From contig NC_014484.1 in assembly GCF_000147075.1 (NCBI RefSeq), positions 699,501-763,500 of the forward strand: a DNA stretch of 64,000 bases, in the 5' to 3' direction. Position numbers and translations under genes: made by a program. A model generated the notes under the pieces. That model was not told the DNA's origin and ran no database searches. It saw nothing but the letters and a program-made list of their open reading frames with translations. This stretch comes from Spirochaeta thermophila DSM 6192. Its GTDB lineage: Bacteria > Spirochaetota > Spirochaetia > Winmispirales > Winmispiraceae. Below, one piece after another: positions 11,387 through 63,162 of the stretch. Position 1 is the first letter of the stretch. Each line of letters begins with the position of its first letter.

Positions 11387-11853
11387 GACAAGAGGATCTC
11401 ACCTCACGGATGGAAGACTACCTGGAGGCCATCTATGTCCTCGCGAAGACCAAGCGGGTAGCCCGGGTGCGGGACATCGCCGAAGCCCTCGGCGTGTCCC
11501 GCTCCACGGTCTCCAACACCCTCCATACCCTCTCGGATAGGGGGTTTATCGAGTATGCGCCCTACGACATCATCAGCCTCACCGAGGAGGGGGAAGAGGC
11601 CGCCAAGGACGTCTTCCGGAGACATACCATCCTCAAGCGGTTCTTCCGGGTGGTTCTCGGTGCTGACGAGCAGATGGCCGAGGAGAATGCCTGCCGCATC
11701 GAGCACGCCATCTCGGAGGAGCTCCTGGAGAGACTGGTGCAGTACCTCGAGTTCATACAGGAGTGTATCCCCGCGCCCTTCCGATACGATCCCGAGAAGG
11801 GTGCCTTCGTGTGCGAGGACAGGGAAGACGAGGATGTCTCACCCCCGGCGTGA
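11383..11853 (+). CDS. DtxR/MntR-family metal-dependent regulator, iron-type
   Basis: 156 residues. A winged helix (about 8-65, 'RVRDIAEALGVSRSTVSNTL') is followed by the dimerisation domain with candidate metal ligands: Asp/Glu near residue 10, the His of 'FRRHTILKRF', and 'ENACRIEHAIS', where the Cys-x-x-Glu-His pattern resembles DtxR (iron) rather than MntR (Glu in place of Cys). There is no SH3 domain. The ATG at 11383 overlaps the feoB stop; a longer frame upstream is feoB in another frame. Third gene of the feo operon, probably its own repressor. It converges with SthK, overlapping by 15 bp. Confidence 0.9.
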   Translation: MRQEDLTSRMEDYLEAIYVLAKTKRVARVRDIAEALGVSRSTVSNTLHTLSDRGFIEYAPYDIISLTEEGEEAAKDVFRRHTILKRFFRVVLGADEQMAEENACRIEHAISEELLERLVQYLEFIQECIPAPFRYDPEKGAFVCEDREDEDVSPPA

Positions 11854-13134
11854 GGTCCCGCCTTCCAGTTCCTCTTTTCTCCTGACGGCGAGTTCCTGTA
11901 TCTGGGCTGCGATCTCCGGATACCGTGAGAGGATCCTGTCGAAGGTCTCCTTGTCGAGGCGGTAGAGATCGCAGAACGTTCGGGCCCGCACGGTGGCGGT
12001 ACGGGGAGCTCTGAGGATGAGCGCCATCTCGCCGAAGAACTGACCTTCCGAGAGGATGGCATAGCGGGTCTTTTCGTCGGCCGAGAGCACCTCTACCGAG
12101 CCCCTGTTTATGAAGTACACGTCGGAGCCCAGCTCTCCCGCCCGTATGATGTACTCGCCCGGTCCATAGATGACCGGTTCGAGGTGGAGGATGATGTCCC
12201 GGATGAAATCCTCGCCCGCCCCCTTGAAGAGGGGTACCTTCTCAATGACGTCGCCGTGGATCTCCATGGCCACTGCGAGGCGGAGGGGATGCGGGAGCTC
12301 CTTGAGCACCTCGCGTTCTTCGTACCCTCGTCTCGTCTCCCACAGGTAGTCGAAGTACTCGAGGATGCGTCGCTGGAGCTCGGGTGAGATCTTCTTATAG
12401 GAGAGGAAGGCCGTGACCCTCTCCATCCGCTCCCTGTGGAGGAGCTTTGCGGCGTCCAGTTTCGAGACGAGGCTCGCGATATTACCGATGACCAGACCGT
12501 ACATGGCCGCACCGAGGAGCTCTATCACAATGGTATAGACAGTCTGTATCGGGGTCGAGGGGGTGATGTCGCCGTACCCGATGGTGGTGAGGGTGGTGAT
12601 GGTCCAGTAGAAGGCGGAGAGGTACCTCGTTCCGGCCGGGCTCTCCGAAGGTGGCTGGAGGCTCATCCATCCGCAGGCAATCCCGTGTGCGGCGAGGAGG
12701 ATGAATCCCACAAGGGAGAGGAGCCTGAGGAGAGCGGGGTTGATCCTGTAGGAGAGGATCCGGGTAGCGCTCCGCTGCACCGAGATGAGCTTGAGGAGCC
12801 TGACGAGCGAGAGGAGGGAGAGGGGAGAGGGGAGGTGGAGGGCGAATACCAGAAGATCGAGCGGGAGTGCCGCAAGCAGGTCGGGAAGGCGGGAAGGGGC
12901 GAGGAGCGTGGGCTTCCGGCCGGAGGTCTTACGGGATTCGAAGGCGAAGTCGAGGGGGATGTCGGCGATGAGAGCAAGGCTCGCGAGGATGTCGAGGGGA
13001 AGAAGGGGGGAAAAGAGGGATGGAAAGACCAGGGTGAGGGGGATGCGGATCGCGTAGTAGAGGGTAACCGCAAGGATCCCCACCTTCCACACAAGCGTAT
13101 ATGTGGGATGTGAAAAGGCCGAGGACTTCATCAC
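11839..13134 (-). CDS. sthK: cyclic-nucleotide-gated potassium channel SthK
   Basis: 431 residues if initiated at GTG 13134, 430 from ATG 13131. I recognise this as the structurally studied prokaryotic CNG channel of Spirochaeta thermophila. S1-S4 voltage-sensor-like helices occupy about 12-125 (S4 'SLVRLLKLISVQRSATR'). The pore helix and selectivity filter 'TTLTTIGYGD' lie near 180-189, S6 near 195-222, the C-linker near 225-300 and the cyclic-nucleotide-binding domain near 305-410. The phosphate-binding cassette contains 'GEMALILRAPRTATV', whose Arg-Thr contacts cyclic nucleotide. It forms K+-conducting tetramers in the inner membrane, opened by cAMP. It stands alone, divergent from a small membrane protein. 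Confidence 0.95.
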   Translation of the reverse strand: MMKSSAFSHPTYTLVWKVGILAVTLYYAIRIPLTLVFPSLFSPLLPLDILASLALIADIPLDFAFESRKTSGRKPTLLAPSRLPDLLAALPLDLLVFALHLPSPLSLLSLVRLLKLISVQRSATRILSYRINPALLRLLSLVGFILLAAHGIACGWMSLQPPSESPAGTRYLSAFYWTITTLTTIGYGDITPSTPIQTVYTIVIELLGAAMYGLVIGNIASLVSKLDAAKLLHRERMERVTAFLSYKKISPELQRRILEYFDYLWETRRGYEEREVLKELPHPLRLAVAMEIHGDVIEKVPLFKGAGEDFIRDIILHLEPVIYGPGEYIIRAGELGSDVYFINRGSVEVLSADEKTRYAILSEGQFFGEMALILRAPRTATVRARTFCDLYRLDKETFDRILSRYPEIAAQIQELAVRRKEELEGGTSRRG

Positions 13135-49914: not shown

Positions 49915-52900
49915 CTAGAACTGCAGGGTCATAGCCAGGCCTGCCATCCATCCGAGGACCGTGACCCGGTTCTCTTCCTCCACGGCGGCAGAGAGGAAGG
50001 CCCTGAAGTTGCCGGAGGTGCCGTAGAGGAGGGTCGAGGTGTGGGTGAGGGAGACGGCGTACTCCGTTCCTCCGTCTTCCCCGCCGGTGAGGGTGAGGCC
50101 CGCCTGTTCGGTGTGGCGGAGGACGGGAGGGGTCACTTTCCATGGTTCGAGGGGTGGGTCGTATGCCCAGGTGGGGGCTGGGGTGTCCCATACGTAGGAG
50201 AGGGTGGCTTCTTCTTTCCAGGGGGGCGAGGTCTCTGGGGAGAGGGTGAGGGTGTGTGAGAGGAGGAGGCCCTGGGGGGCTTCGATGTAGAACCCTGCGG
50301 TCTCGCTCCAGGTGAGGGTCCAGGTGGTGTGGCCGCTCTCGAGTACGTGGGAGAGGGAGAGTGAGAGGATCTGGGTGAACTCGTCGAGGAGGTAGAGGGT
50401 GGTGAGGGGGTGGGCTGCCTGGGCGCCGAAGAGGTTGATGGCCTGGAATGTGAGGGAGGATGTGAGGGTGCGGGTGGTGAGTGGTCTGCCTTCGGTGAGT
50501 CTGTAGGTCACACCGAAGGAGGAGGAGATGTCCCGAGGGATCAGGAGGTCGAGGGGGGTGAGGGAGGGGGGTAGGGTGAGTGTGAGGCCGGTGCGGGGGG
50601 TGTAGGTGAGGGTGGCGGTGGGGGGGACGTGGAGATCGTCCGACGTGAGGAAGAGTTCGTAGAAGGGGATGGATGTGTAGGGGAGGGGGGTCCGGGTGAG
50701 GGTACGGGTGTGGGCGGCCCAGTCCTCGGGGAAGTGGTCGGAGGGGGTGGGTTTTTCTTCGATGGTGAGGGTGCGGGTGTAGAAGGGACTGAGGGTGAGT
50801 CGGGGGCCGAGGGTGTGGGTGCCGGTGAGGGAGAGGGTGTGGGTGTGGGTGCGGGTGGCGAGTGGTGGGGAGGTGGTGGTCTGGGCGGTGAGGGTGAGGG
50901 TCGTGGAGTGGTGTGGTGTCTGGTAGGTGGGGGAGAGGGTGAGGGAGGAGGTGCGGGTGGTGGTCCCGTCCGAGGGGAGGGGGGCGGATTCCTCCCAGGA
51001 TGCGAGGTAGGAGTCGGGGTAGGTGTGTGGGGGAGCGGGGGTGCCCTGGATGGTCTGGGAGAGGGTGCTGCGGCCGGAGAGGCCGAAGGGAGAGGGAGCG
51101 AGATCGGCGGTGAGGGTCCAGGTACGGTTGAGGGTGGTGGAGGTGTGCGAGAGGGAGTGGGACAGGGAGGCGTTGACGGGGGCGAGGGAGAGGCCGAGGG
51201 AGGAGGAGTGGGTGAGGGAGGAGGTAGGGAGGATGGTGTGGCCGAAGGTGTCGGTGAGGGTGAGGGGACCTGCGGGGAGGGTGAGGGAATGATCCAGGTG
51301 GAAGGCTTCCGGCTCGGATCCGTGGAAGGTGCCGGAGAGGCCGAGGCCGAGGGTCGCGGTGAGGAGGGAGAGGGAGGCGTGGGTGGAGAAGGCGGTGGTG
51401 GTGAGGTCTTCGAGGGGGGTGATGGCGGCGACCTGCTGGGTGAGGGTGAGTCCGTGGAGGAGTGGGGTGGAACCGAGGGAGAGGAGGGGGGAGGGATGGG
51501 AGAGGGTGAGGGTGAGGGAGGAGAGGATGGCGGTGGGGTTCTCCGGGTCGTGGGCGAAGACCTCGTCGGCGTGGAGTCTGCCTGTGGCGGGGGGATCGAT
51601 GCAGGTGAGGGCGAGGCGGGTGAGGGAGCCCGTCGAGGCGTCGTCCTCGAGGGATGCGCCGGAGAGGGGCGTCTCGTCCAGGAGTACGCCGCCTCCGGTG
51701 GTGTCGAGGGTGAGGAGGTGCCAGGTGTCGTCGGCGGGGAGGGTGATGCCGGAGGCGTGGAGGCCGCGGCCGTCGGGTGTGGTGAGGGAGAGGAGGAGGG
51801 AGAGGGGGGAGCCTGCGCTGTTCTTGAGAAAGATCGAGATGCGTCGATAGGAACCCGCGGGAAGGGAGGGGATGGAGGTGCGGGCGGTCCACGACCAGGA
51901 GGGGTCGGGGGCTGCGTTGTCCCAGGTGACGGTGAGTGACTTCTGGTCGGCCTCCTCCTCGAACCGGGAGGAGACCAGGGTGCTGGAGGCGGGGAGGGTG
52001 GGGTCGGGGCCGGTGGAGGCGGTGATGGTGGCGTCGGGGTCGGTGGAGGAGGTGTGGAAGGGACTGCCGAGGAGGCCGGGGGCCGAGAAGAGGATGCGGC
52101 CCGAGGCGGCGCCGGTGGTGGCGGTGCGGACGGCGAGGAGGCGGAGGGTGCGGGCCTGGGAGGCGAGGGCTCGGAGTTGGGGGGGGAGGTGGATGGTGAG
52201 GGTGTTCCACCCGGTGGTCGAGGAGATCCCCTGGGCGATCCTGAAGGTGAGGGTGCGGGAGGTGTCTTCGGGATCGAGGAGGCCGTTTCCGTTCGTATCC
52301 TCGCTGCTCATGCGGTTGTCGGGGAGGTTCGAGGGGTCGGTGCCCAGGCGGAGCACCGCCTGGTGGGCGGTGTCATGGAAGGGGAAGCCGGGGTCGTAAG
52401 GGCTTCCCTCCTCTTCCAGGAGTCCGTCGGCGTCGATATCCTCGGCGAGGGCACCGATCTGGATGTAGAGATCGAAGGTGCTGCCGGAAAGGCGGTCGGC
52501 TTTCCATGACAGGGAGAGCCCGGCGACTTCGTCGGGCGGATCACCGATCGGTATCTGCCCTCCTGTCCAGGATTCCCCGTCTGCGAGTTCAAAGTCGAGG
52601 GCCATGCACGCCTCGTCGAATCCCGCTCCTTCCGCCGCCACCAGATAGGGACCGGTCTTCTCGCCTGTTGTGTAGGGATGGATCTGCTCCTCAGGCGGGG
52701 TCCAGGTGTAGTCCTGCAGCGAGCCCCGTCCGTAGACGGTGTAGTGGTAGTAGTCCTTGTAGATGAGTTTCCCCCGGTTCGCGGGGGAGAGTCCGGTGAG
52801 GTCGCCGACGTCGGAGAGAGGGGAGGCCGGATCCCTCACGAGGGTGGTGTCGGCCGGTGGAGCGGCGGGGAAGAGGGATGCTTCGTCGTACCGCAGGGTG

Positions 52901-54615
52901 AGGGAGCCTTCCTCCATGGTGAGGAGCCGGAGGTAACCGGTGGTATCGGTGAGGGTGTGTCGGATTCCCACGTCGGCCCGGAGGTCGAGGCCCTCCCCCT
53001 TGTGGGCGAGTTCGATCGATCCCCGGATATCGCCCGAAGCCTCCCCGGGGGAGGACGTGAAGCGCTCCTCCGTGAGCGGATACCGGACCGAGGCTGCGAG
53101 GTTGAGCGTGGTATGGGGCGAGAGGGAGAAGGTGTTGCCGCTGGCTGCGACCAGGTCTGTTCCGCCTTCACCTTCCCGGGTACGGTAGTAGATGTCGATG
53201 GTGTGGGCGGTCGAGACCTGGTACGGAAGGGTGATGACGCCTGTCTCGTAGTCCACCTGCGCCGCGGTTTCCTCCTGCCCGTTGACCAGCACGCGGACAG
53301 TGCCGGGCTGGGCGTCCGCGGGTATGGTGAGGGCCTCCACCGGTGAGAGGGTGCGGAGCAGGATCTCGTGCCCGGGATACTCCGGGTGCGTGGTGCGCCG
53401 GGGGCCGTAGAGGAGGGGATACTCCCGGGCGAAGGGGTAACGCGCCGCAGGGGTGCGCGCATCTTCACCTTCCCTCCGGACTGTCACCAGACTCCCTTCC
53501 TTCACCAGATGGGCCGAAGGGGTGAGGACGGCCTCCTCTTCGGAATCGCGTTCGACCAGGAGTATCTCTTCCGTGTCCTCGGGGACCTCGTAGGCCCAGA
53601 GAGCCTCGAAGGGGGTGAAACCGGCGGGGACGTAGACGAGGAGGGCCGTCCTCGACTCCAGGTCGATCCTGAGTCGGCTCATGTCCATCCCCAGGTAGTT
53701 CGTGCCCCAGTCGAAGTCCTCGGCCGGGGCCTCCGGATCGAGGAGTCCGCCTGTGGTGCCGCACAAGGCCCCGCGGCCCAGCGAGGCGTCCCCCACCGGA
53801 ACACCCCCCACCGTGTAGTAGACGGCCACCCGGCCGGGTGGCGGCTCGTTCAGGGCGAGGGTACCCTCCTTCAGGGAGTAGCTCAGTTCGTCCTCCCGCG
53901 CCCGCCTCCACCTCGTGCCGTCGTCTGCGGTGAGGGTACCCTCCCCGTCTTCCAGGTACACGGTGAGACTGTCGAGGTCGGTGTCGGGGAGCACGAAGAA
54001 CCGTCCTCTCGTGTACGAGCCGAGGCCCTTCCGGATCTCGTCCACCGTGGAGAGACCGCGGTAGCGGATGTGTCCCGTGGTGGAGGGGTCGAGCCGCACC
54101 ATGAACTCGTGGAAGCTCCATGGTCCCGCGAAGGAGGCGGACACCCCGAGCGATCCCCTCGAAGGACCTGGAAGGTCGAGGTACCGGTAGTTCCCGATAC
54201 CCACCCCGGTGTTCCCCGCCCTCACCGACTGCACCACCTCTCCTTCCTTTCCCTGGTAACCGAAGAGATACGTGCTGTCGTCCAGGTCGTCCTGCACCGT
54301 GATCTCCACGAAGTATCGCTCCATGTACCAGAGCGAGAGGAGGAACTCCGCCTGCTGGGTGTAGGCGAATCCCGGGGTGAGATCCTCAGGCACGTAGCCG
54401 GATATCCACGTCCCGTCGGGCATGCGGGCCCAGCCCGCAGCAAAGGTGGCGCTGCTCTCCCATGTGCCGGCCGCGTAGAGCACGAGGTGCTTGTCGTCCA
54501 CTGTGGTGGCGAAGAGTTCCTGAGGCGCCTCCTCCGGAAGGGGGGGAGGGGCCTCCTGGGCCCCCACGCCCCAGAGGAGGCCGAGGACGATGGGGATGAT
54601 CGTGCGAGGTCTCAC
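49915..54615 (-). CDS. giant outer-membrane protein, possibly SprA-like
   Basis: 1566 residues from GTG 54615, which gives a clean signal peptide ('TIIPIVLGLLWGVGA'). The N-terminal 600 residues are beta-rich domains with repeated patterns such as 'VRVLVNGQEETAAQVDYETGVITLP'. Two acidic Asp/Gly-rich loops ('DIDADGLLEEEG' and 'DTNGNGLLDPED', about residues 780-860) look like calcium sites. From about 1000 to the end the protein is extraordinarily rich in Thr/Ser/Leu/His/Pro in short amphipathic strands and ends in Phe ('MTLQF'), suggesting a very large barrel. A loose resemblance to SprA-type translocon proteins exists, but I cannot confirm it. Single gene upstream of the barrel pair. Confidence 0.7.
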   Translation of the reverse strand: MRPRTIIPIVLGLLWGVGAQEAPPPLPEEAPQELFATTVDDKHLVLYAAGTWESSATFAAGWARMPDGTWISGYVPEDLTPGFAYTQQAEFLLSLWYMERYFVEITVQDDLDDSTYLFGYQGKEGEVVQSVRAGNTGVGIGNYRYLDLPGPSRGSLGVSASFAGPWSFHEFMVRLDPSTTGHIRYRGLSTVDEIRKGLGSYTRGRFFVLPDTDLDSLTVYLEDGEGTLTADDGTRWRRAREDELSYSLKEGTLALNEPPPGRVAVYYTVGGVPVGDASLGRGALCGTTGGLLDPEAPAEDFDWGTNYLGMDMSRLRIDLESRTALLVYVPAGFTPFEALWAYEVPEDTEEILLVERDSEEEAVLTPSAHLVKEGSLVTVRREGEDARTPAARYPFAREYPLLYGPRRTTHPEYPGHEILLRTLSPVEALTIPADAQPGTVRVLVNGQEETAAQVDYETGVITLPYQVSTAHTIDIYYRTREGEGGTDLVAASGNTFSLSPHTTLNLAASVRYPLTEERFTSSPGEASGDIRGSIELAHKGEGLDLRADVGIRHTLTDTTGYLRLLTMEEGSLTLRYDEASLFPAAPPADTTLVRDPASPLSDVGDLTGLSPANRGKLIYKDYYHYTVYGRGSLQDYTWTPPEEQIHPYTTGEKTGPYLVAAEGAGFDEACMALDFELADGESWTGGQIPIGDPPDEVAGLSLSWKADRLSGSTFDLYIQIGALAEDIDADGLLEEEGSPYDPGFPFHDTAHQAVLRLGTDPSNLPDNRMSSEDTNGNGLLDPEDTSRTLTFRIAQGISSTTGWNTLTIHLPPQLRALASQARTLRLLAVRTATTGAASGRILFSAPGLLGSPFHTSSTDPDATITASTGPDPTLPASSTLVSSRFEEEADQKSLTVTWDNAAPDPSWSWTARTSIPSLPAGSYRRISIFLKNSAGSPLSLLLSLTTPDGRGLHASGITLPADDTWHLLTLDTTGGGVLLDETPLSGASLEDDASTGSLTRLALTCIDPPATGRLHADEVFAHDPENPTAILSSLTLTLSHPSPLLSLGSTPLLHGLTLTQQVAAITPLEDLTTTAFSTHASLSLLTATLGLGLSGTFHGSEPEAFHLDHSLTLPAGPLTLTDTFGHTILPTSSLTHSSSLGLSLAPVNASLSHSLSHTSTTLNRTWTLTADLAPSPFGLSGRSTLSQTIQGTPAPPHTYPDSYLASWEESAPLPSDGTTTRTSSLTLSPTYQTPHHSTTLTLTAQTTTSPPLATRTHTHTLSLTGTHTLGPRLTLSPFYTRTLTIEEKPTPSDHFPEDWAAHTRTLTRTPLPYTSIPFYELFLTSDDLHVPPTATLTYTPRTGLTLTLPPSLTPLDLLIPRDISSSFGVTYRLTEGRPLTTRTLTSSLTFQAINLFGAQAAHPLTTLYLLDEFTQILSLSLSHVLESGHTTWTLTWSETAGFYIEAPQGLLLSHTLTLSPETSPPWKEEATLSYVWDTPAPTWAYDPPLEPWKVTPPVLRHTEQAGLTLTGGEDGGTEYAVSLTHTSTLLYGTSGNFRAFLSAAVEEENRVTVLGWMAGLAMTLQF

Positions 54616-54673
54616 CTCTTGTATTATTCGTCCAAACACCTCAATATGTAAACGAAAAAGGAGAGGAATTCCC

Positions 54674-55606
54674 ATGGAGCGCTCCGCAACGATCCCGGAT
54701 GCGGCCCTGGATCTCATGCGACGTTTCTTCGAGAACCCCATGCTCTCCTCCTTCACCCCCCTCCAGCGGGAGGAGCGCATCATCCAGCTCCTCGGTCAGC
54801 AGGGCGACGTCCTCGCTCCCCGGCTCATCCGTGACTACTTCCCCGGCTCCACATGGAACCAGGTGCTCGCCCTCCTGGTGCCCGCCCTGAGGAATGTGAC
54901 CAATGAGGCCCTCTTCCCCCGGCTCGAGGAGATCGTTCGTGGTCTCTCCTGGAAGTTCCTCGCCCTCCTCGATGAAAAGCCCATCCCCCACGCCCAGGTG
55001 GCCGACCAGGTGCTCGCGTTCCTCCGGAAGGTGCTCGCCCGGCAGGACGCGAGGCTCGCCTTCACCGGTCCCTCCACGGCCCTGTTCCACCGGGTCTTAG
55101 ACCGCTACCTCGAGGCCATCTGCGCGGAGCGGGGATACGTGTACTTCGAGCTCTCCAAGGTGGAACGTCTCTCCATGGGCAAGGAAGAGCTGGGCGGGTT
55201 CCTGTCGACCCTCCTCCTCCTGCGGCCCGCCCTCTACCTGCTCACTCCCGACTCGGGTACCGACTTCCGTGAGCGCGTCTCGGGCGTGGTGCGTGCCTCC
55301 TTTGCCGAGCGGCTCTCCCGTGCCCTCGCCCGGGAGATCCCCCTCCTCCCGGCGAAGGTGGTGGAGGCGGCGGTCCTCTCGCACGTCTCCTTCGAGGAGA
55401 ACCCCGGCCTTCCCGCCTCCTCCCGTCTCGTGGCCGTCTTCTCCCATCGGTGCAGGTCCTACCGTCCCGACATCACGGTGGACCGGGGGGCCGAGTCGCC
55501 CGACAGGAGCTGGTTCGCCGCGGCGAGGAGGACGTGGCGGCTTTACGGGTTCGATCTGAAGATGCTCGACGAGCTCTACCGAATCTCTGCGGAATACGGG
55601 TGGTGA
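54674..55606 (+). CDS. conserved-looking helical protein of unknown function
   Basis: 310 residues, predicted almost wholly alpha-helical, soluble and without signal sequence. It has an N-terminal segment 'FFENPMLSSFTPLQREERIIQLLGQQG' and a C-terminal 'PDRSWFAAARRTWRLYGFDLKMLDELYRIS'. I recognise no family. AAGGAG lies about ten bases before the ATG. It ends 3 bp before the pore-less voltage-sensor gene, so the two are certainly co-transcribed and may form a signalling pair. Confidence 0.7.
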   Translation: MERSATIPDAALDLMRRFFENPMLSSFTPLQREERIIQLLGQQGDVLAPRLIRDYFPGSTWNQVLALLVPALRNVTNEALFPRLEEIVRGLSWKFLALLDEKPIPHAQVADQVLAFLRKVLARQDARLAFTGPSTALFHRVLDRYLEAICAERGYVYFELSKVERLSMGKEELGGFLSTLLLLRPALYLLTPDSGTDFRERVSGVVRASFAERLSRALAREIPLLPAKVVEAAVLSHVSFEENPGLPASSRLVAVFSHRCRSYRPDITVDRGAESPDRSWFAAARRTWRLYGFDLKMLDELYRISAEYGW

Positions 55607-55609
55607 CCT

Positions 55610-56716
55610 ATGGACAGCAAGACGACGCGAAGAGGATTCCTGGAAGGTCTCGTGACGGTGGCCATACTCCTCGTCCTCGTGCAGACCGTGCTTGAGGACC
55701 TGGCCGTGTTCCTCACGTGGGAGTGGAGGTGGAGGAGGGCCCTCCTCCTCGCGGGTTTCGGGTTCGACGTGTTCTTCACCCTCGAATTCCTGGTGAGGAG
55801 CATCACGGCGGCATCGGAGGGACGGTTCGCCCGTTACCTCTCGAAGGAACGGGGCTGGATCGATTTCCTGGCCTCGGTGCCTCTTCTCGTCTTCAACTCG
55901 GGGCCCGAGGTGCTTTCCCTCCTCTACGGCGGGGCCGCGTTCGTAGGGATGGCGGGCAAGCTCAAGCTCCTCAAGGTGGTGAAGATCATCCGCATGGCCC
56001 GTATCCTCAGGCTCCTGAGGGGGCTCAAGCTGGTGAAGCAGATCGCCTACATCGACTCTCCCATGACCCAGCACCACATCTCCCGCATCGCCGCCCTGGT
56101 GGTGACCGCCGAGCTGGTGGTCCTCTTCCTCTACAGCCTTCTCCCGGTATTCCTCCCCCTCAAGGGCGTGGAGGAGCGGTACACGACCGGGGTGGTGCGC
56201 ACCGGCCAGGTCTTCACCGAGATGGGGGAGACCCTCACCCCTGACCAGGTCCTCACCCTCGCGGCCGCGCACGGGGAAGTGCTCGTGGTGCGCGCTGGGG
56301 GACAGTCGCTCTATTCCCGCTACGACGACTCGTTCTACGATCGGATGTTCGGCCCGCACGACTACGCCTACTACAGGGAAGGGGCGCTGGAGATCTTCTT
56401 CGACATGCGGCCCGTACATATCGAGTCGGCACGGCTCTCGCTCCTTGCGCTCTCCACGGTGCTGGTGTGTCTCTTCCTCCTCCTCTTCGTCTATGCCCCG
56501 CACTTCGCCCTCACGGTGACCGATCCCCTGCGGGTGGTGGAGCGGGGGCTCTCCGAGCCGGACTACGAGCTCGCCGCACGGGTATACCCCGAGTACGGAG
56601 ACCATGAGGTCTTCCGGGTGGCCCGCCTCTACAACGAGGAGCTCCTGCCCCGCAAGCTCTCGGAAGGCGGGTGGACCTCCATGGAGAGGATAGAGGATCT
56701 GTTGGGGGAGGAGTAA
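55610..56716 (+). CDS. voltage-sensor-domain protein without a pore, with extracytoplasmic and HAMP-like regions
   Basis: 368 residues. S1 (about 13-35), S2 (43-66), S3 ('RGWIDFLASVPLLVF', 81-95) and S4 (117-143) match ion-channel voltage sensors. In S4, basic residues fall every third position: K119, K122, K125, R128, R131, R134, R137, K140, K143. No selectivity filter follows. Instead there is a helix (158-182), about 90 extracytoplasmic residues (183-275), another helix (276-300) and a HAMP-like segment ('TDPLRVVERGL', then 'HEVFRVARLYNEEL', 303-345). No output domain is attached. It should sense membrane potential and possibly pass it to a partner; this is inference. Confidence 0.8.
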   Translation: MDSKTTRRGFLEGLVTVAILLVLVQTVLEDLAVFLTWEWRWRRALLLAGFGFDVFFTLEFLVRSITAASEGRFARYLSKERGWIDFLASVPLLVFNSGPEVLSLLYGGAAFVGMAGKLKLLKVVKIIRMARILRLLRGLKLVKQIAYIDSPMTQHHISRIAALVVTAELVVLFLYSLLPVFLPLKGVEERYTTGVVRTGQVFTEMGETLTPDQVLTLAAAHGEVLVVRAGGQSLYSRYDDSFYDRMFGPHDYAYYREGALEIFFDMRPVHIESARLSLLALSTVLVCLFLLLFVYAPHFALTVTDPLRVVERGLSEPDYELAARVYPEYGDHEVFRVARLYNEELLPRKLSEGGWTSMERIEDLLGEE

Positions 56717-56720
56717 AGCT

Positions 56721-57008
56721 ATGGTGGTCTCGGTGCTGCGTATCCTCATAGAGCTCCCTGGGGTGCACTCTCTCAAGGAGAAACGGAGCATCGTCTCTTC
56801 GCTCAAGGAGAAACTCATCCGGCGGTTCAAGATCTCGTTCGCCGAAGTGGACCTGCACGACAGTCTGGGGTTCGCCGAGATGGGGGGTGCGGTGGTCTCC
56901 AATTCTTCGGCCTTCGGGGAGGGCGTGCTCCAGAAGGTCCTCGCCTTCGTGGAGGCCGAGGTGCCGGGCCGGGTCTACGACGTGTGGATCCACTCCGAGC
57001 AGTACTAG
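56721..57008 (+). CDS. DUF503 family protein (YlxP-like)
   Basis: 95 residues, full length. It opens 'MVVSVLRILIELPGVHSLKEKRSIVSSLKEKLIRRF', the family's typical start, followed by 'SFAEVDLHDSLGFAEMGGAVVSNS'. In many bacteria this gene lies in the nusA-infB-rbfA region and may relate to ribosome assembly; here it follows the voltage-sensor gene by 4 bp, behind GGAGGAG. Its stop overlaps that of the convergent ComFB gene (CTAG). Confidence 0.9.
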   Translation: MVVSVLRILIELPGVHSLKEKRSIVSSLKEKLIRRFKISFAEVDLHDSLGFAEMGGAVVSNSSAFGEGVLQKVLAFVEAEVPGRVYDVWIHSEQY

Positions 57009-57715
57009 GAGAGGGCCTCTTCGGACTCCTCGTCGGGGGGGGCGAGGTAGAGGTCGGGGAGTACGAGGGTCTCTTCGGGGGGGCCTTCGGCCTCGGCGGG
57101 GCGGGAGGAGAGCTCGATGGTGAAGTAGTGCCGGAGCGGGAGGTATCCCTCCTTGTCGACATGGATGCACAGCTCGAAGGAGGCCTTCTCGTCCTTCCGC
57201 GGGGCGGGGAGGGGGGCGGGGAGGAAGACGAAGGTGCCGGGAAGGGCCTTGGTGATGTAGTAGGGGTTCTGCCAGCGCGCGTCGATCATGGGCACGGCCT
57301 TCCCCTCGTGGACGAGGAGCACGGTGATGTCGGCTGCGGGCTCGAAGGTGGGGGCGAGGAGGAGCCTGCCCCTGATGACCGGGAAGTGGAAGAGGTAGTC
57401 GGCCTTCGGTGGCGAGGGTGAGGATGCCTGGTAGTAGGGGCGCCTGATGCTCGTGATGCGTTTGAGGCCCTCGGTGGCGAGGGTGAGGATGTCGATGAGG
57501 AGTTGGGGGTCTTCCTCGTAGTGGACGCTCGTGTAGGCCACACCGCGGGCCGAGCTCACGTAACGTGGCGGCACCCTGTTGAGCACGTAACAGACGATGT
57601 CCTGTCTGCACTCTTCGGTGAGGCAGTACTTCCCGGGTTCGGTGTGCGCCTTCTCCTTGCAGAGGTCGTCCACCACACGGGTGACGATGTCCTCCATGAG
57701 GTTATGGACCTTCAT
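57005..57715 (-). CDS. ComFB-domain protein
   Basis: 236 residues. Residues about 1-95 form a late-competence ComFB domain ('VHNLMEDIVTRVVDDLC', 'YCLTEECRQDIVCYVLNRVPPRYVSSARGVAY'), with four cysteines near the start. The remaining 140 residues are a beta-rich domain of unknown kind with an acidic tail. ComFB proteins have been reported as c-di-GMP receptors in cyanobacteria; that role would fit the nearby PilZ genes, but is inference. It overlaps ttcA by 14 bp and is the last gene of the HD-TtcA-ComFB operon. Confidence 0.82.
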   Translation of the reverse strand: MKVHNLMEDIVTRVVDDLCKEKAHTEPGKYCLTEECRQDIVCYVLNRVPPRYVSSARGVAYTSVHYEEDPQLLIDILTLATEGLKRITSIRRPYYQASSPSPPKADYLFHFPVIRGRLLLAPTFEPAADITVLLVHEGKAVPMIDARWQNPYYITKALPGTFVFLPAPLPAPRKDEKASFELCIHVDKEGYLPLRHYFTIELSSRPAEAEGPPEETLVLPDLYLAPPDEESEEALS

Positions 57716-58532
57716 CTTTTCCCTCTCGTTCTACTGTAGTGTACTCGTGCCCAGTTTTCAAGGAGATGGGGAGGTAGTCGGGCTGGATGTTGAGGAGGGA
57801 ACGGTAGATCTTCTCCCGCGCGAGGGGATCGAGGGTCGCGAGCTGCTCCACCAGGGGTTTCACCCTGAGTCTGAGGTTGGTGTCCTTGTAGGGGCAGTCG
57901 GGTTTCACCACCGGAAGGCCGAGTTTTTCGACAGCGGTGCGTACCTGCGATTCGGGGACTTCGCAGAGGGGACGGATGAGGGTGAACAGGCCTCCGAAGA
58001 AGGGCTGGACCGGCATCATGGTGAAGAGGCGTCCCCGCATGGCCATGTTGATGAGGGTGGTCTCCACGATGTCGTCGAGGTGGTGTCCGAGGGCGAGGAT
58101 GGGGATGTCGTATTCCTTCATGTAGGTGAAGAGATGGCGTTTGCGGTTCCGTGCGCAGAGGTAGCAGTTGAACTGGCCGTCGTAGTGCCCGGGGAACATG
58201 GTGGTGGTGATCTGGGTGAAGGGTACGTCGATGGCCTCGAAGTAGGCGGCGAGACGGGCGCTCTCCTCGTCGGAGATGGGGTACTCCTCCCAGTTGAGGT
58301 GCACGGCCTCGAGGTGGTAGTGGATGGGGAGCCACCTGCGCCTGAGCGAGAGGACGAGGGCCATGACGAGGGAGTCCTTGCCTCCCGAGATCCCGAGGAG
58401 CACGCGATCGCCTTCGCGCAGCATCCCGTACCGGTTGATGCCCCTCCCTGCCTTGCGGGCGAGGCGGGTGAGCCAGGGGGGGAGGGGGCCTTCGAAGAGC
58501 CGACGGATGTGGTCGAATCCGGTGGTGTTCAT
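57702..58532 (-). CDS. ttcA: TtcA-family tRNA 2-thiolation enzyme
   Basis: 276 residues. The PP-loop 'VLLGISGGKDSLVMA' lies near residue 45, and 'CYLCARNRKR' supplies the CxxC that ligates an Fe-S cluster in TtcA; 'ILALGHHLDDIVETTLINMAMRG' is the other family marker. A later Cys (in 'KPDCPYKD') could be the third cluster-linked cysteine. It adds sulfur to cytidine 32 of tRNA or a related site. It overlaps both neighbours in the operon by 4 and 14 bp. Confidence 0.88.
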   Translation of the reverse strand: MNTTGFDHIRRLFEGPLPPWLTRLARKAGRGINRYGMLREGDRVLLGISGGKDSLVMALVLSLRRRWLPIHYHLEAVHLNWEEYPISDEESARLAAYFEAIDVPFTQITTTMFPGHYDGQFNCYLCARNRKRHLFTYMKEYDIPILALGHHLDDIVETTLINMAMRGRLFTMMPVQPFFGGLFTLIRPLCEVPESQVRTAVEKLGLPVVKPDCPYKDTNLRLRVKPLVEQLATLDPLAREKIYRSLLNIQPDYLPISLKTGHEYTTVEREGKDEGP

Positions 58533-59803
58533 AGTGCCTCCATGAGTGTGTCCTCTATGGTGCGGGGTGAGGGGGGAGTGTCAGCGAGGGGAGGGGGTAC
58601 GAAGAGTCTGATGGTGCGGATGGTGGTGGTGAAGGCGTGGACGGTTCCGGGGGTGAAGACGGTGCGGGCTTCGGTGTAGGGTATCGTGCGTTCGTCCTCG
58701 GTGATGATGTGGATGTCGGTCTCGAAGACGAGGGGTTCGGGGATGTCGAGGATGAGGTGGAGGGGTGAGGCGGAGGGGAAGAGGGTGGCGAGTGCGGCTT
58801 CGAGCCGGCTGCGGGTGGGGGGGTGTTCGATGGCGCGGTGGAGGGGGGAGGCGGGGTCATAGGGGACTTCCCAGATGCAGGTGTGGAGGGTGCCCTTGTG
58901 CACGTCTTCCACGAGGGTGTGGGCGGGTGCGGTTGGGGGGAGGAGTCCGAGGAGGCCGGCGTCGTCGAGGAGGTAGAGCTGGTGGGGGTCGATGATCCGT
59001 TCGGTGAGGGCGTGATGGATCGCTTTTTTCATCATGGCGGTGGCGGCGCGTACGGTGCGGTGCCAGTACACGGTGCGGTACATGAGGTACTTGCTGAAGA
59101 GGATGTGTTCGATGGAGGGGATGCCCGAGGGGGTGATGGCGAGGCCGGAGGCGGTGGGGCGGATGGTGGTGAGGATGTGGTCGATGTCCTGCACGCCGTA
59201 GGGGACGCCGCAGAAAAAGGCATCGCGGGTGAGGTAGTCGAGTTTGTCCGGGTCGAGGACGCCGGAGAGGAGGGCACGGAGGAAGGGGGTGTGAGGGGTG
59301 GGGGCGGGGAGGGTGTGGTCGATGATGGCGGCGGGGATGAGAGGGTCGCATCCTGCGTCGCGTATGAGTGATGCGAGGGGTTCCTCCTGGATGAGGGTGG
59401 CGCTCAGGTGTTCGTGGGGCGTGAGGGTGGTGCCGTCGGGAAGGAGGAGGTCCTTGAGGGAGTGGGTGTAGGGATAGTGGCCGAGGTCGTGAAGCAGGGA
59501 TGCGATGAGAAAGCCGAGGACTTCTTCCCCGGTGAGGTGCGGGAAGGTGGGGTGCTCTGCGAGCGAGAGGAGCATGCGCCAGGCGAGGGAGAAGACGCCC
59601 AGGCTGTGGGAGGCGCGGGTGTGGGTGGCGCCGGGGTAGAGAAGGTAGGTGGGGCCGAGCTGGCGGATGCGGGTGAGGCGCTGGAAGGGGGGGGTGCGGA
59701 GGAGGGGAAGGAGGGGGTGGGGGAGGTGGATGTGGCGCCAGATGGGGTCGCGGAGGGGGCGGGAGGGGAGGGAGAGGAGCCAGGAGAGGGGATGGGTGCT
59801 CAT
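58529..59803 (-). CDS. HD-domain phosphohydrolase (dGTPase/SAMHD1-like)
   Basis: 424 residues. The HD site is assembled from the His in 'THTRASHSLGVFSLA', 'LIASLLHDLGHYPYTHSL' (HD plus following His) and the later Asp in 'LSGVLDPDKLDYLTRD'. The order and the 'FQRLTRIRQLGPTYLLYPGATHTR' start match the group of deoxynucleotide triphosphohydrolase-like HD proteins. Coding-strand C is extreme. The ATG at 59803 has no Shine-Dalgarno and lies 7 nt after a -10 box. First gene of the operon with ttcA and the ComFB gene. Confidence 0.87.
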   Translation of the reverse strand: MSTHPLSWLLSLPSRPLRDPIWRHIHLPHPLLPLLRTPPFQRLTRIRQLGPTYLLYPGATHTRASHSLGVFSLAWRMLLSLAEHPTFPHLTGEEVLGFLIASLLHDLGHYPYTHSLKDLLLPDGTTLTPHEHLSATLIQEEPLASLIRDAGCDPLIPAAIIDHTLPAPTPHTPFLRALLSGVLDPDKLDYLTRDAFFCGVPYGVQDIDHILTTIRPTASGLAITPSGIPSIEHILFSKYLMYRTVYWHRTVRAATAMMKKAIHHALTERIIDPHQLYLLDDAGLLGLLPPTAPAHTLVEDVHKGTLHTCIWEVPYDPASPLHRAIEHPPTRSRLEAALATLFPSASPLHLILDIPEPLVFETDIHIITEDERTIPYTEARTVFTPGTVHAFTTTIRTIRLFVPPPLADTPPSPRTIEDTLMEAL

Positions 59804-59810
59804 GGGGTGT

Positions 59811-59839
59811 ATGGTAGCGGGAGGGTCCGGGTGTGTCCA
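59811..59839 (-). promoter_or_regulatory. promoter of the HD-ttcA-ComFB operon, predicted leaderless start
   Basis: TGGACA (59834-59839), a 17-bp spacer and TACCAT (59811-59816) on the minus strand; the ATG starts 7 nt later. Confidence 0.55.
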
Positions 59840-59851
59840 GGACGTGTGGGC

Positions 59852-59880
59852 TTGCGCGGGGTGGGAATGCTCCGTATAAT
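59852..59880 (+). promoter_or_regulatory. promoter of the lipoprotein-PilZ pair
   Basis: TTGCGC (59852-59857), a 17-bp spacer and TATAAT (59875-59880), divergent from the HD operon promoter; the leader is about 20 nt. Confidence 0.65.
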
Positions 59881-59907
59881 GAAACAACGCTGCGTGTGGG
59901 AGGAGGC

Positions 59908-60618
59908 GTGCGGAAGGGACGTTTCCCCGTTCTCTCGAGTGTGCTCGTGGCGGTGATCTTCTCCTGTGGAGGGGGAAAACCGGCCTCCACCCAGGCCACG
60001 CCCTCCCCTTCGCCTGTCGCATCTCCCCTGCGGGTGGAGCTCTCCTCATCGGAGCGGGAGTCCCGTGGATCGCCCGAGAGCGTGCCGGATGTCCCTACGG
60101 GAGGGGACTCTCGCTCCTCCTCACCCCGTCCCTCCCTGACTTCTTCTCCCTCCTCCCGGGTGGAGGGCGAGGCGCCCTTTCTCCAGCACCTGAGGGAGTC
60201 CGTACTCGCGACCGACACCTACATCGGCCCCCTTCCGGGTCGTCTCGCGCCTTCATCGCCCGAAGAGGCGGCCCGCTGGACGGCACAGGCCTTTTCGACC
60301 AGACGGCTGCCGCCCGAGATCCAGGATGAGGGGGTGCGCCAGCACGTTCTCAGGACCCTGGCCTATATGGATCGGCTGGGAGTCTCCGTCACAGGTGTAC
60401 GTATCGGACTGGCCTTCCCCGACGCCTCGGGGCTCTTCCACGTGAACATCAAGTTGTATCTCCAAGAGGGATACGTGGGGGGGAGCGTCGTCTTGAAGAA
60501 GCAAGATGCCGGATGGGTGGTCTCTGACCTCCTCCTCGATACGGCATCGTTCCTCTCTCCCGAGACCGAGGAACGCCCCTTCGCACCGGGAGGCTACGCC
60601 ATGTTGCCCCTCTACTAG
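59908..60618 (+). CDS. lipoprotein of unknown function with low-complexity linker
   Basis: 236 residues from GTG 59908, which has GGGAGGAGG just upstream. The signal 'FPVLSSVLVAVIFSC' carries a lipobox-like IFSC. A Ser/Pro/Arg-rich low-complexity stretch (about residues 25-85) tethers a C-terminal globular domain (about 90-236; 'TDTYIGPLPGRLAPSSPEEAARW', 'FHVNIKLYLQEGYVGGSVVLKKQDAGWVVSDLLLDTASF') that resembles a small NTF2-like or cystatin-like fold, a guess only. It precedes the PilZ gene by 16 bp in the same operon. Confidence 0.65.
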   Translation: MRKGRFPVLSSVLVAVIFSCGGGKPASTQATPSPSPVASPLRVELSSSERESRGSPESVPDVPTGGDSRSSSPRPSLTSSPSSRVEGEAPFLQHLRESVLATDTYIGPLPGRLAPSSPEEAARWTAQAFSTRRLPPEIQDEGVRQHVLRTLAYMDRLGVSVTGVRIGLAFPDASGLFHVNIKLYLQEGYVGGSVVLKKQDAGWVVSDLLLDTASFLSPETEERPFAPGGYAMLPLY

Positions 60619-60634
60619 GGGAAAGGAGCAGGCC

Positions 60635-61900
60635 ATGGGTACTCCGCTCAGGCGGATCGAGAAGGAATTCATCATCAAGTCGCTCGAGGATGAGAAGATC
60701 CCCGTGGAGCTCCTGCTACAGAGGCGGCGATACCGCGCGGAGATCCACAAGGTGGACTTCAAGACGGGCAAGATGTATCTCTTCGTGGAGGGGAACCCGG
60801 TGCTCGACATTCCCGTGGGCGACGAGGTGAGCGCCTATTTCCGCATTCACGGCACGCTCATGACCTTCGATATGGTCTACCTGGGGCGGGAAGACGACCT
60901 CGTGGTGACGAGCATCCCCGAAGGGGTCTATCGGGATCTCCAGCGGGAGTTCGAGCGGGTGAGACATCCGGAAAACGTGAGGCTCCTGTTCACCGTGAGG
61001 GGCGAGCGTTATGTCCTCAACTTTCCTTCCGTGAAGAGGGGGGGGGCGGGGACCCCACCGGTGGTGTCTTCCTCCTTCGATGCGGCCACCATCTCCACGC
61101 TCCTCAACGATTTCAGGAAGAAGGCGGCCGAATTCTCCACCGAGAGCAAGATCGTCATGTTCAAGGAGCGCACTCCCGAATCCGAGGAAGAGCGTATCAT
61201 CACCGACACCGGCAAGGTACTTCTCTATCCTCAGAGCTATATCTACACGTCGGCCAACATCGACAGGCTCTACCCCCAGCTCAACCTCCTCTCCATAGAC
61301 GCCATTCTCCTCTACTTCCGCGACCAAGGCGTCTCCAGGTCTGATGCCGTGCGCCGCATCAGGGAACTGGTGGCGCGGAAGAGGGAACAGAAGATAGGTC
61401 AGGAACTCTTTGCCCCCATCCTCTTCTATGAATACGTGATAGGGTATGTGTACCTGGTGAGCACGGTGGAGAAGAGGGTGCGTTACGACAAGCGGGTCCT
61501 CGAATACGTACACGAGTTCTGTGCGAGTCTGGCCTATTCCCTCAAGATCCATGGGTACTTCAAGCCCCAGAAGGCCGAGATCACCTACGATCGGGCGGAG
61601 ATCATCGACATAAGCCTCTCCGGGGTCCTGTTCACGTTCCCTCGACAGGTGGAGGACGATCCCTTCCTCCTCTTCTCGGAGATCGAGGTGGTGCTCGAAG
61701 TAGAAGGCAGGAAGGTCCCCGTCAAGGCCCGTGTGGTGCGGCGTTTTCAGGATGCCGACAAGCTCTACGTCGCGCTCGCCTTTCTCGATCTGAGAGACGA
61801 CGACAGGTTCTTCCTCGCACGGTCGCTCTACGGTGAGGATTTCTCCGGAGAGGTGAAGGTCATCTCTTCGGAGGGATCGGCGGAGGATTCTTCCTCGTGA
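60635..61900 (+). CDS. PilZ-domain protein (DUF1577-like)
   Basis: 421 residues. The N-terminal 100 residues resemble a YcgR-N/DUF1577 beta domain ('VELLLQRRRYRAEIHKVDFKTGKMYLFVEG'), the centre is mixed, and the C-terminus (about 325-405) is PilZ-like: 'YDRAEIIDISLSGVLFTF' contains the D/NxSxxG motif and 'VKARVVRRFQDADKLYVALAFLDL' completes the barrel. Spirochaetes carry such c-di-GMP effectors. I chose the ATG at 60635, with AAAGGAG upstream. The end runs 73 bp over the convergent STAS gene. Confidence 0.78.
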   Translation: MGTPLRRIEKEFIIKSLEDEKIPVELLLQRRRYRAEIHKVDFKTGKMYLFVEGNPVLDIPVGDEVSAYFRIHGTLMTFDMVYLGREDDLVVTSIPEGVYRDLQREFERVRHPENVRLLFTVRGERYVLNFPSVKRGGAGTPPVVSSSFDAATISTLLNDFRKKAAEFSTESKIVMFKERTPESEEERIITDTGKVLLYPQSYIYTSANIDRLYPQLNLLSIDAILLYFRDQGVSRSDAVRRIRELVARKREQKIGQELFAPILFYEYVIGYVYLVSTVEKRVRYDKRVLEYVHEFCASLAYSLKIHGYFKPQKAEITYDRAEIIDISLSGVLFTFPRQVEDDPFLLFSEIEVVLEVEGRKVPVKARVVRRFQDADKLYVALAFLDLRDDDRFFLARSLYGEDFSGEVKVISSEGSAEDSSS

Positions 61901-62220
61901 AGCGCCTCCTCGAGAGAGGGAGCGATGGGGAAGTAGTGGAGAAGTTTCGTAAGCTCGATGACCCGTTTCACCGAGCCGTGGAGATTCACCAGGTAGAAAG
62001 CGATGTCCCGGCGTTTGGCCTCGGAGTAGGCGTAGAGGAGGGCCCCTATGCCGCTCGAATCGATGTAGGTGAGACCGTCGAGGTCGAATACGATCCTCGC
62101 CGGGTGTTCGGGAAACACCTTCTGCAGCATATCCTTTATCCGAGGAGCCTGGTAGAGATCTAACTCCCCGCTCAGGGAGAGGATGAATGAATGCTTCTCC
62201 CTGGTTACATCGATATCCAT
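61828..62220 (-). CDS. STAS-domain anti-sigma-factor antagonist
   Basis: 130 residues, a single STAS domain. 'SLSGELDLYQAPRIKDMLQKV' starts it, and 'DLDGLTYIDSSGIGALLYAYSEAK' contains the phospho-acceptor Ser of the DSSG motif. In partner-switching systems the unphosphorylated form binds the anti-sigma kinase. The extra acidic tail of about 25 residues is encoded where the gene overlaps the convergent PilZ gene. The ATG has GGGGG eight bases upstream, and a TATAAT (62246-62251) lies 26 bp away. The HATPase 400 bp upstream is the natural kinase partner. Confidence 0.9.
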   Translation of the reverse strand: MDIDVTREKHSFILSLSGELDLYQAPRIKDMLQKVFPEHPARIVFDLDGLTYIDSSGIGALLYAYSEAKRRDIAFYLVNLHGSVKRVIELTKLLHYFPIAPSLEEALHEEESSADPSEEMTFTSPEKSSP

Positions 62221-62245
62221 TCAGATACCCCCTTTGCTACGCTGC

Positions 62246-62251
62246 ATTATA
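62246..62251 (-). promoter_or_regulatory. -10 element upstream of the STAS gene
   Basis: A perfect TATAAT on the minus strand, 25 bp before the start codon; no convincing -35 at 16-18 bp, so only a partial promoter is supported. Confidence 0.4.
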
Positions 62252-62279
62252 CTGCCTCCCGAGCGAAGCTGCCAGGGGG

Positions 62280-62630
62280 TCATATGGTACGGACGTGATC
62301 CCGTATGAACTCCACCAGTTTTTTCAATTTGAGCGATGATTCTATGGGTACCTCTACGAAGCGGAATCCCGCCGTGTAGAAGAAATCCTCGTGGGCGGTC
62401 CACCGGACCTCGGCAGTCACTTCAAAAGGAGGGATGCCCGTCTCTTCGAGGGGTATCACCTGGAGGACGTGATGCGCCCCCTCCTCCAGGGGAAGCGGCT
62501 TCAGGAACTCGAGTTTACAGCCGAGGACAGAGATGTCCCTCACATAGGCGGGGGTCTCCTCGTCCTCGATGAGGGCCTTGGCGTAGAGATTATCGCGAGG
62601 TACTTTCCGCTTCTCTTCTCTCTGCTCCAT
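62280..62630 (-). CDS. PilZ-domain protein
   Basis: 116 residues, a stand-alone PilZ domain. The c-di-GMP-binding 'EKRKVPRDNLYAKALI' (RxxxR) is near the N-terminus, followed by 'VRDISVLGCKLEF' (DxSxxG). 'VTAEVRWTAHEDFFYTAGFRFVEV' completes the barrel, and a helix ends the protein. It probably transmits c-di-GMP level to a partner. It overlaps the HATPase gene by 41 bp and lies 59 bp before the STAS gene. Confidence 0.88.
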   Translation of the reverse strand: MEQREEKRKVPRDNLYAKALIEDEETPAYVRDISVLGCKLEFLKPLPLEEGAHHVLQVIPLEETGIPPFEVTAEVRWTAHEDFFYTAGFRFVEVPIESSLKLKKLVEFIRDHVRTI

Positions 62631-63162
62631 GAGGGGCTCCTATAGCGATGCTTCCCCGGATGAGGGTCCCGTGTTTCTCCTGAGCATCCCAGGGCACTTC
62701 GTTCCCGCTGCCGTCGAAGAAGTGGATTTCCAGTCTGTCGAAGACCTTCTTTGCGATATAGAGGCCCAGGCCGAAATGTCGGTTGCCGTTCGCCTCCCGG
62801 TAGGCCTGGAAGGCCTTGCTCTCGATGTCGATCCTGTCCACCGGTAGATCGATGTCGTAGGGAAGGGTGGAGGGATCGAAGCCTCCTGCCTCGTCCCGTA
62901 CCTCTGCGGTGAAGGAGCCGTCCTTGAAGGCGAGGGTCACGTACACAGGTGCAGGGTCGACCTTCTTCGAGAGCGCCCTGAGGGAGTTGCTCACAAGCTC
63001 GAGTACGGCGTAGATGATGGTCTGAGAGGCGTGCGGGAGTCCGACTATCTCCACTTTCCTGAGGAGGGAGAAGACTTCCGTGACCGTGGCCCCCGGATGA
63101 ATCGTGAGTCGGATCCGGGAGAGTTTTTTCTCGCCAATCCGCAGATAGTGTGGCATAATCAT
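62590..63162 (-). CDS. GHKL ATPase, probable serine anti-sigma kinase
   Basis: 190 residues. The ATP site is clear: N-box 'YAVLELVSNSLRAL', G1 'VRDEAGGFDP' and G2 'HFGLGLYIAKKVFDRL'. No phosphoacceptor His domain is present, so it resembles RsbW/SpoIIAB-type kinases or histidine-kinase-like ATPases that act in trans. ATG 63162 or 63156 may be used; neither has a Shine-Dalgarno, and TATCCT lies 5 nt before the first. The STAS protein two genes downstream is the likely partner. Confidence 0.82.
   Translation of the reverse strand: MIMPHYLRIGEKKLSRIRLTIHPGATVTEVFSLLRKVEIVGLPHASQTIIYAVLELVSNSLRALSKKVDPAPVYVTLAFKDGSFTAEVRDEAGGFDPSTLPYDIDLPVDRIDIESKAFQAYREANGNRHFGLGLYIAKKVFDRLEIHFFDGSGNEVPWDAQEKHGTLIRGSIAIGAPHGAERREAESTSR

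Follow-up and report, generated by a model that had tools for sequence, protein, structure and literature searches.

A voltage-sensor domain without a recognisable pore

A gene of Spirochaeta thermophila DSM 6192 (P0001) begins like that of a voltage-gated channel and continues without a recognisable pore or enzyme. The gene lies in a stretch of 64,000 nucleotides (the window; NC_014484.1, positions 699,501 to 763,500), which is numbered here from its first letter. The ORF has its ATG at 55610 and its stop at 56716 and encodes 368 amino acids. The protein and the parts of it concerned with sensing are as follows.

55610..56716, + strand: P0001, pore-less voltage-sensor-domain (VSD) protein, 368 amino acids (ORF, Pfam, phylum-wide family)
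55616..55711, + strand: S1 helix (residues 3-34), conserved E29/D30 towards the extracytoplasmic end (AlphaFold2, conservation)
55724..55816, + strand: S2 helix (residues 39-69), conserved D53, F56, E59 and R63 in the pattern of a charge-transfer centre (conservation, AlphaFold2)
55853..55927, + strand: S3 helix (residues 82-106), invariant D85 (conservation, AlphaFold2)
55964..56038, + strand: S4 (residues 119-143), nine Lys/Arg at i+3, those from 122 to 140 conserved in the family (sequence, conservation, shuffles)
56042..56089, + strand: S4-TM5 linker (residues 145-160), motif S-x-M-x-Q-x-H, kept in HAMP-bearing and lost in HAMP-less members (conservation, comparison of loci)

Ion_trans (PF00520) is the sole Pfam match of P0001 (E = 1.2e-8, 34.9 bits; curated cut-off 25 bits). 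The alignment pairs residues 15-147 with positions 8-120 of the 241 in the profile, indicating that the pore half is missing from P0001.

An earlier note on this DNA, made from the letters alone, had described nine basic residues at strict i+3 spacing in S4, and all are present (K119, K122, K125, R128, R131, R134, R137, K140 and K143). In 200,000 shuffles of P0001 an i+3 run of Lys/Arg never exceeded seven, the longest obtained, and in the other window ORFs of at least 100 amino acids such a run is never longer than six. Most homologues have Asn in place of K119, and position 143 is variable, so the conserved S4 array consists of seven charges, from 122 to 140. The resemblance of S2 and S3 to channel voltage sensors, claimed in the same note, is borne out by F56, E59 and R63 in S2 and D85 in S3, all of them conserved in the family and equivalent to charge-transfer residues in Kv channels.

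The AlphaFold2 model of P0001, built on an alignment of 39 family sequences, has a mean pLDDT of 80.5, with the start of S4 weak (44-66) and residues 110-119, directly before S4, poorly defined. Prediction of the structure of P0001 alone had been set beforehand as a possible refuter of the voltage-sensor reading; the four sensor helices are present (S1 3-34, S2 39-69, S3 82-106, S4 120-144), followed by TM5 (151-181).

P0001 is a phylum-wide family of Spirochaetota. In the class Spirochaetia, 154 of the 395 genomes and 59 of the 133 genera have a homologue, and others are found in further classes of the phylum. Ion_trans is matched by 38 of 39 family members (best E 8.8e-16). Over these 39 sequences K122, R131, R134 and R137 in S4 and D85 in S3 are invariant, while K125, R128 and K140 (S4), F56, E59 and R63 (S2) and S150, M152, Q154 and H156 (linker) reach at least 90% conservation. 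Other Spirochaetota have a second, distinct family of pore-less VSD proteins (422-496 amino acids; L127:2441-3706, L128:4711-6198, L129:3732-5129 and L130:4514-5905), in which S4 is followed by TM5, a short extracytoplasmic part, TM6 and a HAMP-like stretch, the C-terminal tail being longer.

A receptor-like C-terminal half

After S4 the earlier note had read a helix, an extracytoplasmic region, a further helix and a HAMP-like stretch. The AlphaFold2 model agrees with the helix, the extracytoplasmic domain (about 85 residues) and the second helix, whereas the HAMP-like stretch has only a remote counterpart in HAMP (hhalign probability 29.7%).

56060..56152, + strand: TM5 (residues 151-181; AlphaFold2, hydropathy)
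56153..56407, + strand: extracytoplasmic alpha/beta domain (residues 182-266, a-a-b-b-a-b-b), missing in some relatives (AlphaFold2, PDB search)
56408..56494, + strand: TM6 (residues 267-295; AlphaFold2, hydropathy)
56495..56665, + strand: HAMP-like tail (residues 296-352) with P297-H298-F299-A300, D305-P306, G313, an acidic pair, L-A-x-x-Y-N342, L346 and K349 (conservation, AlphaFold2, hhalign)

In the model an alpha-alpha-beta-beta-alpha-beta-beta domain occupies residues 187-265, between TM5 and TM6; a long helix (267-315) carries TM6 on into the first helix of the tail, and a second tail helix spans 333-352. A PDB sequence search with the extracytoplasmic domain gave no significant match. 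When the whole model was searched against PDB folds, a modelled structure that includes the sensor kinase WalK ranked first (probability 0.97, E = 0.097, TM-score 0.33) and KCNQ channels came lower in the list, neither being significant by E-value.

The earlier note had proposed profile searches with Ion_trans and HAMP, of which the first gave the match described above and the second none in P0001. At E ≤ 1, Pfam HAMP (PF00672) was matched by none of 39 family members, although the same profile has 15 matches elsewhere in the S. thermophila genome. Alignment of the tail by hhalign with the HAMPs of its own genome (E = 5.6e-4, 45 columns, in the register of the motif) lends weak support to an AS1-connector-AS2 layout; Pro306, Gly313, the acidic pair and Asn342 fall on HAMP motif positions, and a helix pair is present in the model. 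The tail is best termed 'HAMP-like', its possible homology to HAMP being remote and weakly indicated. P0001 ends about 15 residues past it.

A constant partner and its neighbourhood

The earlier note suggested that the gene upstream might encode an output partner and that spirochaete genomes be surveyed for conserved pairing.

54674..55606, + strand: P0002, all-helical cytoplasmic partner, 310 amino acids, no known family (ORF, AlphaFold2, pairing survey)
56721..57008, + strand: DUF503 (YlxP-type) gene, often but not always in the cluster (neighbourhood comparison)

Only 3 nt separate the stop of P0002 from the start of P0001. Of the genomes of the class, 125 encode P0002, and none of these lacks P0001. 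In each of the 42 pairs inspected the two genes are neighbours on the same strand, with 38 of the pairs within 30 nt or overlapping. Outside the class the surrounding genes differ and the pair usually persists. There are exceptions: the genome G408 encodes both proteins at separate places, part of g80 has lost P0002 though S4 and tail are intact, and the genus g199, also with intact S4 and tail, has no P0002 in its genome and a CNG channel after the VSD gene instead. From gene content and order, the assignment of P0002 as the companion of P0001 is strongly supported.

P0002 is predicted to be all-helical (pLDDT 91.6). Its identity was sought in Pfam and NCBIfam and among PDB sequences and folds, with no significant result. 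The top fold match, the HD-type protein DvhD, has an E of about 1 and is followed lower down by other HD proteins, a lead only.

The DUF503 gene, 4 nt downstream of P0001, is probably a passenger. A gene that runs divergently from the pair in most Spirochaetia loci encodes a conserved 1622-amino-acid protein without a Pfam match (49918-54783 of the window, - strand). Near the pair, positions 57008-63162 of the window encode ComFB, two PilZ proteins, a STAS protein and a HATPase_c protein, of the kind found in c-di-GMP or anti-sigma type regulation. A c-di-GMP link through the ComFB/PilZ cluster was considered and rejected, as other classes have different neighbours and only the pair stays. In three loci of family f62 (L114:6637-7587, L125:5572-6522 and L160:2663-3610) a convergent gene comes after the VSD gene; it encodes a response regulator with REC and, in one of these loci, HATPase_c_2 as well.

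Of the 125 genomes of the class that have the pair, 123 encode FliG and the other two are incomplete (87% and 70%); a further 169 genomes of the class have FliG and no pair. It is suggestive that within the class the pair is confined to flagellated lineages without being required for flagella, an inference weakened by the clustering of non-flagellated genomes by family; outside the class FliG is almost universal. A chemotaxis link by neighbourhood was rejected, since it appears only in Borrelia-like genomes (flaA-cheA-cheW-cheX-cheY), where the genes are convergent and S4 has decayed.

In eight loci of family f73 a gene for a CNG-type channel lies directly downstream of P0001 on the same strand (L120:6908-9302, L121:6349-8028, L149-L152, L154 and L157); in some a Na/Ca exchanger follows, and then a conserved protein without a Pfam match. 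Ion_trans and cNMP_binding were shown for the channels of L120 and L121. This operon ties the P0001 family to electrical or ionic physiology. It is also the main support for the alternative that P0001 serves a separate CNG-type channel as auxiliary voltage-sensing subunit or as regulator, its output being channel gating and not a HAMP pathway. The combination of VSD protein and channel without P0002 in g199 would fit such a role, as would the fact that S. thermophila itself encodes SthK, a CNG K+ channel with PDB entries under that name, which covers nearly the whole Ion_trans profile and, besides one weak sub-threshold match, is the only Ion_trans protein of the genome other than P0001. However, SthK lies 42 kb from P0001 in the window (11839-13134, - strand), no linked channel gene is found elsewhere, and throughout the phylum it is P0002 and not a channel that regularly accompanies P0001. 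Regulation of a separate channel is thus an unlikely function for P0001.

Linked fate of sensor, linker, tail and partner

If S4, linker, tail and partner formed one path, they would be expected to occur together, and across 79 loci they tend to do so. In the 56 loci with tail and partner, all seven S4 charges are kept in 53, the linker Met in 52 and the linker His in 52. Where the tail is present and the partner absent (nine loci), all seven charges are kept in five; where both are absent (14 loci), in one, and the linker motif in none. A partner without a tail was seen in 0 of 79 loci. The tendency of S4 charges, linker motif, tail and partner to be kept or lost together is suggestive. The tree implies about six changes each for partner and tail, and an independent-pairs test has no power; co-loss as a statistical proof was accordingly discarded, the raw association being strong and the power gone once shared ancestry is corrected for.

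Shortened forms with neither tail nor partner occur in L097, L099 and L104 and in L072, L091-L096 and L098, some with a nearly intact S4; HAMP-less forms mostly have three to six of the seven charges. Borrelia-like genomes retain 3/7 charges and Brachyspira-like genomes 0/7, and the gene pair is still present in both (L071:9724-11624 and L126:3738-5518), which amounts to natural loss of the voltage sensor. As the pair persists with its S4 charges largely gone, it has some role without a need for voltage sensing.

Such degraded S4 segments, in these two lineages and in the HAMP-less forms, would agree with P0001 being a four-helix scaffold derived from a channel VSD, in which voltage is not sensed and the extracytoplasmic domain and tail alone signal. 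A passive scaffold, however, would not be expected to hold charges in the membrane at strict i+3, and where tail and partner are present, 53 of 56 members keep all seven charges and F56, E59 and D85 with them. We consider it doubtful that P0001 serves as a scaffold.

Absence of a recognisable pore or enzyme

That P0001 has no selectivity filter and no catalytic domain, as the earlier note had it, was upheld. A scan of 79 members for selectivity-filter motifs found nothing conserved, only four isolated chance matches at unrelated places, and no homologue carrying a pore after S4, which the earlier note had named as a further possible refuter, was seen among those examined. Pfam and NCBIfam searches found no PTEN-like or other enzyme domain after S4. 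Cytoplasmic output domains (HisKA/HATPase, MCP, GGDEF or cyclase) are absent from the family by Pfam, Ion_trans alone being matched.

Permeation might also take place through the VSD itself, P0001 being an Hv1-like proton channel of bacteria that is regulated by the tail. Hv1 is indeed a VSD without a separate pore, and the acids E29 and D30 in S1 are conserved. Yet these lie towards the outer end of the helix, the mid-S1 selectivity aspartate is unmatched (Q25/T26 stand there in the family), and S4 has seven to nine charges, not three, making a proton channel very improbable. It is highly unlikely that P0001 is an ordinary six-TM channel with its VSD first and an unrecognised pore between TM5 and TM6, given that the Pfam match stops after S4, that no filter motif is conserved between TM5 and TM6, that the intervening loop is modelled as an alpha/beta domain, and that in L124 and L125, which lack this domain, TM5 leads into TM6 with almost nothing in between, so that a pore would not fit.

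Proposed mechanism

P0001 is probably a membrane-potential receptor that signals through its HAMP-like tail to P0002. A change in membrane voltage would move the positive S4 past the charge-transfer residues F56, E59 and D85, and the conserved linker between S4 and TM5 would pass this movement on to TM5 and TM6 and so to the cytoplasmic end of TM6. There the HAMP-like tail might shift between two states, possibly modified by a ligand of the extracytoplasmic domain. The soluble, helical P0002 would read the state of the tail and carry the signal onward. The sensor anatomy, the lack of a recognisable pore or enzyme, the conservation throughout the family and the pairing are the sequence basis of this scheme; voltage sensitivity, mechanical coupling, contact of the tail with P0002 and the onward output of the pair are proposed.

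Membrane potential is reportedly involved in chemotaxis of Spirochaeta aurantia, which is said to be inhibited by voltage clamp in the work of Goulbourne and Greenberg from 1981 and 1983 (cited in PMC4841586). This inhibition would be explained if the pair fed into the control of motility or chemotaxis. As a long shot, the pair might be the voltage receptor of spirochaetes, through which potential signals along the long cell reach P0002 and then motility or chemotaxis control. Signalling between flagellar motors at the two ends of a spirochaete is listed as unsolved in a 2020 review, diffusion of CheY-P being too slow (PMC7225975). A potential-reading receptor found throughout a phylum would, if true, provide a molecular receptor for bacterial electrical signalling, and for spirochaetes the old question of membrane potential in chemotaxis becomes testable. 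For biophysics, P0001 would be a small, possibly thermostable VSD free of a pore.

Comparison with known systems

Kv and KCNQ channels, including SthK, have in common with P0001 the S1-S4 segments, the Phe and Glu of S2, the Asp of S3 and a basic S4 at i+3, though the sequence match of P0001 S2-S4 to Kv1.3 and Kv1.2 is weak and not significant. Unlike them, P0001 has no S5-pore-S6, filter or CNBD, and has an extracytoplasmic domain and a HAMP-like tail. Ci-VSP is likewise a pore-less VSD with a cytoplasmic output (proposed in the case of P0001), but P0001 lacks a phosphatase or other enzyme, has two extra TM helices, and its output is apparently a separate protein.

Hv1 and TMEM266 resemble P0001 in having a VSD and no separate pore. 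The output of TMEM266, itself a VSD protein, is not known. On inspection against the Hv1 pattern, the family alignments show neither the mid-S1 Asp nor the three-Arg S4 signature, and TM5, TM6 and the tail are extra in P0001. The C-terminal half of P0001 is like WalK-type kinases and chemoreceptors in its order of TM, extracytoplasmic alpha/beta domain, TM and HAMP-like helix pair; in contrast to these, it has no kinase, cyclase, GGDEF or MCP domain, a VSD stands in front, and its HAMP-like tail goes unrecognised by Pfam.

Bacteria are not known to have a VSD outside channels. A search of an open-access library found no paper on a voltage sensor domain joined with a HAMP domain. In the sperm Na+/H+ exchanger SLC9C1 a VSD controls a non-channel (PMC10620092), and P0001 has no exchanger domain. 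VSDs are known to drive channels, proton permeation, a phosphatase and an exchanger (PMC13095418, PMC10620092), and according to a review neither eubacteria nor archaea have Hv channels. The earlier note's distinction of P0001 from channels, Hv1 and Ci-VSP-type phosphatases stands. As every known VSD family fails on a defining feature that was tested, the architecture of P0001 appears to be of a new kind, the newness concerning the kind of architecture and not the certainty of function. In P0001-P0002, a conserved two-gene unit, a channel voltage sensor is joined to a receptor-like module, making the pair a candidate voltage reader of bacteria.
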